From Candidatus Sphingomonas phytovorans (lineage in GTDB: Bacteria > Pseudomonadota > Alphaproteobacteria > Sphingomonadales > Sphingomonadaceae): a DNA stretch of 64,000 nucleotides. The notes beneath the pieces are model-generated. The model had not been told where the DNA came from and did no database searches. It saw only the letters and a program-made list of their open reading frames with translations. The stretch is from positions 1,924,501 to 1,988,500 of the forward strand of contig CP119314.1 of assembly GCA_029202385.1 (NCBI GenBank). Direction: 5' to 3'. Positions within the stretch are counted from its first letter, which is position 1. Each line of letters opens with the position of its first letter. Of the stretch, positions 818 to 3,844 are shown in pieces. Made by a program: the position numbers and the translations under genes.

Positions 818-972
818 AGATTTAAGAGTCAAACCGGGTCGCGCGATGGGACCCGAACGACCCTGGGCGCGCCAGCAGCTATGGCGCGCAACATGTCCTT
901 TCCGCATTCTTCGCCGAGAGCATGGAGCGCGGCAGCAGAACCCTGTCCGCGCGGCGGCCCGAAAGCCGGCAG

Positions 973-2304
973 TCAATAAAGCAGCTTGCGGATGCTCGTA
1001 TCGGGGCCGAACTGACGATAGACCAGTTCGTCGAACATATATTTGAAAGGCGGGCACTGCTTGCCGTGGAAATTGCGGTTGAGGTCGCGCACTTTAGGAC
1101 AGCTGCCCATGCAGGTCGGCAGCAGCGCACAGGCACGGCACTCGCTGTCGTCAAGCGGGTCGCGCTCGCTGAGCGGGCTTTTCGCGAGGCGCGGCCATCC
1201 CGCCGGATCGTCGAGCCGACCGATGCAGCGCCCGTCATTTTCGAGCTCGGCCCAACATTTGTAGAGTTCGCCTTTCGCCGACACCACGAACGCGTTGATC
1301 GAATCCACCTGGCACACGCCAGTGAGGCTCGGCGTCGGGGCCGCGTGCGCGATCGGCCAGCCGTTTCGCGCGCAGACCGCGATGGCGTGGGACTTGAACT
1401 GCGCGAACTCGCGCGCGGTAAGCACCGTCGCGGCTGTCGGCTGACGGGAGAAATTCTCGACATGCGCAAGATCGACCTGGATACGGTCGAGCAGCCCCTC
1501 GGCATCCAGTTCGCGATACAGGTCCTCGAACCGGTCCTGATTCGAACGATCGACATTCATCCGCACCAGCACCGCCATCGACGCGGGAATATGGCGGATG
1601 TTGGCGACGATCTTGGCGAAGGTGCCGCCCCGGCTCCGTTTGAGGAAACGACGCGAATCGTGCACCTCGGCCGGTCCGTCGAGCGTGATCTGCACGTGCG
1701 AGACACCGCAATGATCGAGCATGGCGCAGGTCTTGACGCTCAGCCCATATCCGTTCGTGATAATGTTGGCCTTATAGGCCCCGATCGCGCCGCTGCGCTC
1801 GCGTTCCTGGAACATACCGCTCAGCCGCTCGATCACCGCGAGCCCCATCAGCGGCTCGCCGCCAAACCAGGTCACGCTGAGCGCCGGGGATGGCCCGGCC
1901 GACTCGCAAAGGCCATCGGCGAACGCGACCAGGCGATCCTGGACAGCGACGCTCATCATTCCTTTGACATGCGTTTCGAAACAATAATCGCAACCGAAAT
2001 TGCAATCCATCGTCGGGGTGATGGTCAGATGCGGCGCGTATTTGTTTTGCCGGGCGGTGTTGAAGGCGATGCCGACGGATTCGACCTCGTCGATCTGGCG
2101 GTCGACAGCGAAACCTGCCTGGTGGAGAATGTCGCCATCCTCCGCCAGCACATCGCCTGAGCGGATAGCGCCGTAGAGCGCGCGCAACCGATCGTCGAGG
2201 ACCAGGTAATTTCCCGTCGCCGTATTATAAATGGCCTCGAACGCGTCGCCATCCCGCTTCACCGCAACGTTGAACACAGACGCGGCGAGCGTAGCGGAGG
2301 TCAT
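973..2304 (-). CDS. Radical SAM/SPASM peptide maturase (RiPP-modifying)
   Basis: A 443-aa enzyme expected to install a radical-generated crosslink in a peptide. The radical SAM cluster motif C-x3-C-x2-C is at residues 101-108 (CNFGCDYC). A complete SPASM signature follows near the C-terminus: C-x13-G-x4-C (from GVCQ to KCW), then C-x2-C-x5-C-x3-C (CRACALLPTCMGSC), then a further Cys (KQCPP), enough for two auxiliary [4Fe-4S] clusters. Residues 1-90 form an extra N-terminal domain of the kind seen in maturases for Cys-rich peptides, possibly for leader recognition. The ATG at 2304 directly abuts the TGA of the 65-aa Cys-rich ORF, so the two are translated as a pair. The substrate is inferred from this context, not proven. 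Confidence 0.9.
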   Translation of the reverse strand: MTSATLAASVFNVAVKRDGDAFEAIYNTATGNYLVLDDRLRALYGAIRSGDVLAEDGDILHQAGFAVDRQIDEVESVGIAFNTARQNKYAPHLTITPTMDCNFGCDYCFETHVKGMMSVAVQDRLVAFADGLCESAGPSPALSVTWFGGEPLMGLAVIERLSGMFQERERSGAIGAYKANIITNGYGLSVKTCAMLDHCGVSHVQITLDGPAEVHDSRRFLKRSRGGTFAKIVANIRHIPASMAVLVRMNVDRSNQDRFEDLYRELDAEGLLDRIQVDLAHVENFSRQPTAATVLTAREFAQFKSHAIAVCARNGWPIAHAAPTPSLTGVCQVDSINAFVVSAKGELYKCWAELENDGRCIGRLDDPAGWPRLAKSPLSERDPLDDSECRACALLPTCMGSCPKVRDLNRNFHGKQCPPFKYMFDELVYRQFGPDTSIRKLLY

Positions 2305-2502
2305 TCAATTGGACTGTTTTTCAAGCGGCGAGCATCCCGGAGAGCTGAAATCCATGCATTGCGACACGGGATCGCAGCTCAGCATCTTCGGCTTGCAAGT
2401 GATCGTATAGGCGTCGCACTCATCACTCGAAGCGACCACGTTCTCGATCAGGCGACGCGCATGCTCGTTATTGTATGAATCCGCATTTTCCGCATCACTC
2501 AT
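2305..2502 (-). CDS. Cys-rich putative RiPP precursor peptide (65 aa)
   Basis: A small acidic peptide with a leader-like N-terminus (HARRLIENVV at residues 14-23) and a C-terminal half carrying five cysteines at positions 29, 36, 43, 49 and 57, spaced 7, 7, 6 and 8 apart. Asp follows Cys at 29/30 and 43/44. A good ribosome site (CTGGAGATAAACC) precedes the ATG at 2502. Its stop codon is followed without a gap by the start of the radical SAM/SPASM gene. Regular Cys spacing next to such an enzyme is typical of sactipeptide or ranthipeptide precursors. I do not recognise the peptide family. No protease or exporter is linked to it. Confidence 0.75.
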   Translation of the reverse strand: MSDAENADSYNNEHARRLIENVVASSDECDAYTITCKPKMLSCDPVSQCMDFSSPGCSPLEKQSN

Positions 2503-2919
2503 GGTTTATCTCCAGGCGAGTCGAGTACCGAGTGAAGATGCATCGACTCTTATACGATCGCAATTCAATTGTTTTGCAGTCACTGCACGGTCCTTTCCCG
2601 AATGCGCAAATGACGAAGGGGGTTCTCATCGGAATAACGCTCCGGGTACGTCTCGATGAACAAGGGAACTATGGTTTTTGATCCGATTCTGAGCTTTCGA
2701 TAGGCACGAAATTCCAACCCCGGTTACCGGAACAAGAACGCGGTCCATCATCGCAACCTGATTGGAATCACCATTTCTCCGCTGAGCTGATCAAGTCGGG
2801 GAGCCCGACGCCGCCAATTCGGCCCAGTCCCGCCTTGCCCCAGCACCAGCCAAAGCGCTCGCTCGTGCACGTGACGACTCGCGCCCGGGAGCAGCGCCCA
2901 TGTCCGATATCTTTGAATA
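2503..2919. other. Intergenic, AT-richer region upstream of the Cys-rich peptide
   Basis: This 417-bp stretch holds no convincing gene on either strand. It is noticeably richer in A/T than its surroundings, especially 2540-2700, and should contain the promoter of the peptide/radical SAM pair. A TATAAG hexamer on the minus strand (revcomp around 2550) is a possible -10, but I could not pair it with a good -35. Confidence 0.4.
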
Positions 2920-3698: not shown

Positions 3699-3736
3699 CC
3701 TCTTCTCCATGATCGTTGTCGCCCGAGAGCCCCCGG

Positions 3737-3844
3737 GTTGCTCACATCCGTTCGAGTGCAAAGGTTGCTCACATCCGTTCGCGTACTAAGGTTGCTCACA
3801 TCCGTTCGCGGGCAAAAGTTGCTCACATTCGTTCGCCGGGCAAT
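3737..3844. repeat. Four tandem copies of a 27-bp unit
   Basis: Units start at 3737, 3764, 3791 and 3818. Each carries the 18-bp core GTTGCTCACATCCGTTCG (one mismatch in the last) and a 9-bp variable spacer. The fourth unit contains the stop codon of the upstream DUF1801 gene; in minus orientation the core encodes its last residues (ERM, then TGA). The other copies look like repeated duplications of that gene's 3' end. Confidence 0.9.

Follow-up and report, generated by a model that had tools for sequence, protein, structure and literature searches.

A conserved cysteine-rich peptide and its predicted radical SAM/SPASM maturase in Candidatus Sphingomonas phytovorans

A 64,000-nucleotide stretch of the genome of Candidatus Sphingomonas phytovorans (assembly GCA_029202385.1, contig CP119314.1, positions 1,924,501 to 1,988,500; hereafter the window) carries on its minus strand two abutting genes, which code for a 65-amino-acid precursor peptide with five cysteines (2305–2502) and a 443-amino-acid radical S-adenosylmethionine (SAM)/SPASM peptide maturase (973–2304) and most likely make a cysteine-crosslinked peptide. 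The pair is probably a minimal cassette for a ribosomally synthesized and post-translationally modified peptide (RiPP), in which leader docking, radical SAM chemistry and the formation of Cys-to-carbon thioether rings would be followed by housekeeping removal and export or by an intracellular life of the product. The observed part of this explanation consists of the pairing of the genes, their conservation, the membership of the maturase in a group and its predicted fold. At the junction, the TGA of the peptide (2305–2307) touches the ATG of the maturase (2302–2304) with zero gap, an arrangement that fits translational coupling and is present both in the window and in a diverged genome of the same genus (G043).

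The maturase displays the radical SAM motif CNFGCDYC (C101, C105 and C108; 1981–2004, minus strand) and seven SPASM cysteines (C331, C350, C389, C392, C398, C402 and C417; 1054–1314, minus strand). All ten cysteines are conserved in 31/31 rows of an alignment (A1) that includes the window protein and from which P0001, P0003 and P0004 were omitted as near copies. The general domain models are passed (SPASM TIGR04085, 45.3 bits with a cut-off of 27; PF04055, 48.5 bits with a cut-off of 29.5) and, together with the adjacent conserved precursor, these features mark the protein as a predicted radical SAM/SPASM RiPP maturase. Ahead of the motif, residues 12–85 are predicted to form a strand–strand–strand–helix–helix–strand–helix succession, and the structure alignment to CteB, which is also the first match by sequence profile, starts at residue 9, the stretch before residue 84 being barely tested by the tool. 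Residues 9–88 (2041–2280, minus strand) are thus described here as a predicted domain resembling a RiPP recognition element (RRE). In the structure comparison CteB and anSME are tied by Z score (27.3–27.6, root-mean-square deviation 3.2–3.3), anSME being aligned from residue 89 only, while ChlB has a Z score of 26.0 and TigE, aligned from residue 2, one of 24.8.

The cysteines of the peptide lie at positions 29, 36, 43, 49 and 57, in steps of 7, 7, 6 and 8 (intervals of 6-6-5-7 residues). Their number is unremarkable, since 22/369 open reading frames (ORFs) of 40–110 amino acids in the window, the peptide included, have at least five cysteines in 45 residues; it is the conservation of the core and of its cysteines, and not their count, that makes the peptide more than a chance frame. 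A database search yielded four peptide clusters, and in the six aligned peptides the five cysteines, the EHARRL motif and 23 of the 26 residues from 32 to 57 are all invariant. In comparison with the G043 peptide, nonsynonymous differences affect 3/29 codons of the core region C29–C57 (CDAYTITCKPKMLSCDPVSQCMDFSSPGC; 2332–2418, minus strand) and 13/28 codons of the diverged leader, which contains the proposed RRE-binding element NEHARRLI (residues 12–19; 2446–2469, minus strand). Nonsynonymous divergence (dN) in the core is 0.052 and synonymous divergence (dS) 0.238; the leader has 0.337 and 0.694, and the maturase 0.060 and 0.532, these being rough values for such short sequences. No NCBIfam model matched the peptide at E ≤ 1, that of CefA (NF038108) included, with which a control peptide scored 60.7 bits against a cut-off of 30. 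A Pfam DUF5733 match below its cut-off (12.6 of 27 bits, E 0.15) was judged to be due to chance.

The features on which the preliminary description of this DNA had been built, from the cysteine positions and the gapless junction to the CxxxCxxC motif and the SPASM set, were all recovered. The check that it proposed on orthologues bore out the conservation of the five cysteines, and the peptide belongs to no named family, its maturase passing general radical SAM and SPASM models only. The best-scoring family models for the maturase are TIGR04463 (230.4 of 525 bits), Clo7bot TIGR04334 (206.6 of 600), FlmE/OhkG (166.3 of 500) and CefB (161.6 of 600), and no cut-off was reached among the NCBIfam equivalog models (best 25 of 59). 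The controls, a TIGR04463 protein of Methylomagnum and a Clo7bot maturase of Paraclostridium, scored 589.6 and 727.5 bits, respectively. In two trees of 70 rows the window protein and 35 others stand on one side of a branch with a support of 100 in the Shimodaira–Hasegawa-like approximate likelihood-ratio test (SH-aLRT), both trees being quick searches with SH-aLRT support only and with neither bootstrap nor outgroup. The rows of both were chosen by us: the first has 36/78 loci, the Myxococcota locus L127, 32 proteins and the window, and in the second three long-branched loci were dropped and L131, L132 and L133 were added. In this second tree both controls, for TIGR04463 and for Clo7bot, lie outside the window group, on the side of the remaining 34 rows. 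Some of the protein rows realigned with MAFFT had been taken from a gapped alignment; MAFFT usually drops gaps from its input. Five other group members (P0008, P0016, P0022, P0026 and one from Myxococcota) scored 219.7–267.5 bits with TIGR04463, under the cut-off of 525. Eight group maturases (P0010, P0011, P0012, P0014, P0015, P0018, P0019 and P0021) carry an extra N-terminal stretch ahead of the common start, with K(E/Q)PLxC common to six of them, which may be a start-site miscall or a real extension. The maturase is assigned to a new subfamily that has a precursor family to itself and stands alongside Clo7bot, Cef and TIGR04463. The suggestion of an unrecognized RiPP class therefore holds in part: a precursor–maturase pair is present and reaches no family cut-off, but a separate class is unsupported, the closest family models for the maturase being those of known radical SAM/SPASM maturases of Cys-rich peptides, some of which are found beside named Cys-rich precursors.

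DNA could be read at four of the 36 group rows, namely the window, Sphingomonas sp. QA11, G043 and a Myxococcota genome (G715), and the peptide lies beside the maturase in all four, with no instance of the maturase standing without it; the other 32 rows are proteins only, P0002 being nearly identical to that of G043. Within the phylum Myxococcota one of 377 genomes, G715, matches the maturase at E 1e-62 or better, with 41% identity. Its peptide (L127:5960–6286; hypothetical protein EP330_04055 of a Deltaproteobacteria metagenome-assembled genome, MAG) has 108 amino acids and six cysteines, ends 60 bp before the maturase and starts with MNRREFLEVLG (N-terminus MNRREFLEVLGVLGVSG). When aligned with the window peptide, HARRLI pairs with HAQKLI and KPKMLSCD with NPLSCD, so that the leader motif HAxxLI recurs, and 11/2000 shuffles scored as well. 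This was one of six shuffle comparisons, the others being G043 against the Myxococcota peptide (8/2000), leader alone (130/2000), core alone (380/2000), window against a Bradyrhizobium peptide (36/2000) and window against a Hyphobacterium precursor, where no similarity was found (1280/2000).

More distant maturases, about 29–36% identical, also adjoin Cys-rich ORFs, for example in Bradyrhizobium, Hyphobacterium, Magnetovibrio, an Acidimicrobiia MAG and some Bacteroidales. The Acidimicrobiia locus (L031:7013–7993) has three different Cys-rich ORFs in succession ahead of one maturase. An upstream ORF with at least five cysteines in 45 residues occurs at 23/71 loci of this wider superfamily (70 of the 78 loci plus L127; eight were omitted for too little upstream DNA, including L002, the G043 locus, which has the peptide) against 84/539 control positions. 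The enrichment is weak, as some of the 23 (for example L019, L032 and L040) resemble frames that arose by chance, and a precursor that lies downstream or has fewer cysteines scores as a miss; a tendency exists, but most loci fail the crude count. This weak enrichment and the frequency of chance Cys-rich frames in the window would both suit a peptide that is no substrate: the small ORF next door, or a leader, would serve some unrelated purpose, and the maturase would act elsewhere. Such an account seems very improbable in the face of the coupled TGA–ATG in both diverged genomes, the invariant cysteines and the Myxococcota parallel.

In the proposed mechanism the precursor would be translated and its leader, around NEHARRLI, would dock on the RRE-like domain at the N-terminus of the enzyme. 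In CteB, the RRE holds the leader as a beta strand (excerpt of PMC8326336). The CxxxCxxC cluster would cleave SAM, the 5'-deoxyadenosyl radical would abstract a hydrogen from a core acceptor residue, and the thiolate of a core cysteine on an incompletely ligated auxiliary cluster would give rise to Cys-to-carbon thioether rings, each with a loss of 2 Da. Leader removal and any export would be performed by housekeeping functions, or the product would stay in the cell. Leader docking, thioether chemistry, ring topology and function are the part of the explanation that we infer. According to the same excerpt, one auxiliary cluster of CteB has an open iron, a possible contact for a substrate cysteine, while the clusters of SuiB, PqqE and anSME are fully ligated. 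Seven SPASM cysteines, as in the window maturase, are counted for CteB, QhpD and Tte1186 in an excerpt of PMC10352776. In an alignment read by eye, CteB has one cysteine, placed between the counterparts of C331 and C350, that the window protein lacks. The first auxiliary cluster would thus be ligated by C331, C350 and C402 with one open place, unless this is filled by the invariant D334, close to C331, and it is this presumed open place that makes the Cys-to-carbon thioether the likeliest chemistry. Since the cysteines are spread along the core instead of being crowded together at one of its ends, a set of short rings seems more likely than a single nested hairpin. An excerpt of PMC8172795 describes streptosactin as unnested and all other sactipeptides as containing nested hairpins; the spread of the cysteines suggests rings of the unnested kind for the window peptide.

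Several points weigh against a thioether-forming cassette. CteB is tied by Z score with anSME, which makes formylglycine and no crosslink, with ChlB and TigE close behind, and this tie slightly lowers the odds of crosslinking. The core is without the PapA-type CX3D/E motif, and D334 could act as a fourth cluster ligand and leave no free place for a cysteine, an aspartate being a cluster ligand in PqqE (excerpt of PMC8326336). The leader resembles that of the Myxococcota peptide only modestly (11/2000 shuffles, or 130/2000 for the leader alone), and of the four readable group loci two come from one species. The same tie leaves some room for an enzyme that modifies the peptide by other radical chemistry, such as SuiB/PqqE-type C–C crosslinks, anSME-type side-chain oxidation or TigE-type changes, its cysteines remaining free or forming disulfides. 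This we regard as unlikely, given that CteB is first by sequence profile and aligns over the N-terminal part too, that the five core cysteines are invariant and that the named families closest to the maturase act on Cys-rich substrates.

The pair is rare. It is present in 3/251 Sphingomonas genomes, its own and a same-species genome included. The latter (Sphingomonas sp. QA11; G228, L003) has both genes, the peptide DNA differing at 2/198 bases and that of the maturase at 50/1332, and in G043 (L002) the maturase is 88% and the peptide 69% identical. In the family of Sphingomonas its own genome is the sole match (1/397, E 1e-55), as it is in the class (1/289, E 1e-62). Streptomyces gave 0/392 at 1e-62 in a search that had no positive control, though P0016 bears a Streptomyces name. 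Viral contigs contain 36 relatives, the longer matches with at most 30% identity, and 83 plasmid records all fall below 60% identity, 15 of them being listed at 26–35%. This rarity and the changing neighbourhood of the pair suggest an accessory rather than a housekeeping trait.

The absence of an adjacent exporter or protease, pointed out earlier, was confirmed among the window neighbours, and no transporter or protease was found on the visible, downstream side in G043, where the nearest ORF was scanned, the contig ending on the upstream side. This absence, together with the lack of a signal peptide on the sphingomonad precursor (by eye) and purifying selection on the core, could also be accounted for by a peptide that works inside the cell in redox reactions or in binding metals or clusters, a housekeeping product whose cysteines are needed as thiols and which receives a single activating modification. 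The occurrence in three of 251 Sphingomonas genomes is unlike a housekeeping function and relatives in two other lineages have precursors with N-termini resembling twin-arginine translocation (Tat) signals, so that we consider this explanation improbable. Besides the Myxococcota precursor, those of Hyphobacterium indicum (L024:7345–7959) and a close alphaproteobacterial MAG (L018:7342–7959), whose neighbouring maturase is more distant, contain CGxNxC repeats and, close to the N-terminus, NRRLFLKS; they reach 25.4 and 27.2 bits, respectively, with the CefA model (cut-off 30). Their Tat-like nature is our assumption from a familiar motif and is not confirmed by family models: with NCBIfam TIGR02811 ('formate dehydrogenase region TAT target'), whose cut-off is 48, the Myxococcota precursor attains 19–22 bits, and no Tat model matched the L024 and L018 precursors in NCBIfam or any of the three in Pfam. 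These N-termini hint at export of already crosslinked peptides. A wider scenario, in which the group and its neighbours make exporter-less RiPPs by crosslinking a Cys-rich substrate in the cytoplasm, some lineages exporting it folded and crosslinked via Tat and Sphingomonas lacking the Tat-like part and keeping its product intracellular, is doubtful.

Between the window genome (G000, a single-contig genome, of which a 20-kb stretch was compared) and the 12.4-kb contig of G043, DNA similarity is confined to window positions 966–2573, so the cassette stands in unrelated surroundings in the two genomes. The upstream limit of this similarity bounds a conserved 5' flank (2503–2573, minus strand) with a Shine–Dalgarno-like GGAG at 2510–2513, ahead of the peptide ORF (by eye). 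A scan for promoters and terminators gave no minus-strand match, the flank included, and G043 does not share an inverted repeat of 7 bp that the G000 flank contains (by eye). Around the pair, the window has PadR, one ORF and another of 104 amino acids without Pfam match, and two DUF1801 ORFs; in G043 an MmyB-like regulator lies downstream of the pair and a tRNA-Pro about 270 bases upstream, at the contig end, where the view stops. The G+C content is 52.5% in the peptide gene, 54.7% in the flank and 64.7% in the window, which would fit acquisition without proving it. An empty site could not be read: homologues of the left-hand ORF occur in 11/61 genomes and of the DUF1801 ORF in 6/61, the own genome being in both counts, and although G005 and G012 contain both, these are on separate contigs. 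Elsewhere in the window, at 3736–3836, a 27-bp unit (GGTTGCTCACATCCGTTCGCGTGCAAA) is repeated 3.7 times, its 18-base core (≤2 mismatches) occurring nowhere else in the genome. To the left of the window, about 7.4 kb at a tRNA-Arg gene in G228 (L129:3713–11147) are missing at the equivalent place of G000, the flanks overlapping by 11 bp, and a 706-amino-acid ORF (L128:7684–9804) contains HEAWH (HExxH) and is DUF4157-like by eye only.

The cassette adds one unassigned maturase group and one unassigned precursor family, in sphingomonads, to the Cys-rich radical SAM RiPPs, and as it comprises only two genes it is an easy system for testing which carbon the cysteines join, the sulfur being linked to the alpha carbon in sactipeptides and to another carbon in ranthipeptides. 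The lack of an exporter and the Tat-like N-termini on the precursors of relatives also suggest a route, open to testing, by which these peptides would exit the cell, if they do.

No paper on the pair was among those listed from the open PubMed Central (PMC) literature, which leaves subscription papers outside, nor was any found that names Clo7bot, TIGR04463, TIGR04334, TIGR04280 or Cys-every-fifth; the one mention encountered for sphingomonads is an unspecified antiSMASH 'ranthipeptide' cluster of Novosphingobium (excerpt of PMC13292080). Among known systems, anSME (PDB 4k36–4k39), whose substrate is a sulfatase, aligns only from residue 89 and has no RRE-like part, and TigE (PDB 8vpo) forms cyclopropylglycine, a chemistry different from Cys-based crosslinking. 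PapB, which makes the ranthipeptide freyrasin from PapA, is a related SPASM maturase with a multi-Cys substrate, whereas the window protein scores 93.4 bits with its model (NF047865, cut-off 340) and the window core is without CX3D/E, the PapA motif according to an excerpt of PMC9413430. With respect to CteB/CteA (SCIFF; PDB 5wgg/5why), the window maturase is far under the TIGR03974 cut-off (57.8 bits against 425), and SCIFF has six cysteines in forty-five residues whereas the window peptide has five in 29. Clo7bot/CtpM (TIGR04333/TIGR04334), the second-best model, shares short Cys-rich precursors, but there an ABC transporter gene and seven annotated Clo7bot peptides lie close by, whereas the present pair has one precursor and no such gene nearby, and its maturase misses the cut-off of 600 and is separated from the Clo7bot control. 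On plasmid pRS11DPr1 of Methylomagnum, the CefA protein (L131:1334–3373) is a 679-amino-acid ricin-type lectin/beta-gamma crystallin/FRG1-like fusion that carries a long tail of the Cys-every-fifth type; a TIGR04463 maturase adjoins it. CefA differs from the window peptide in its C-x4-C spacing, a gene annotated as a radical SAM C-methyltransferase adjoins that locus and none is found among the scanned window neighbours, and the window protein and five group members stay under 525 bits with the control outside their group; still, TIGR04463 is the best-scoring model for the window maturase, and the two systems share a Cys-rich substrate encoded upstream of the enzyme.
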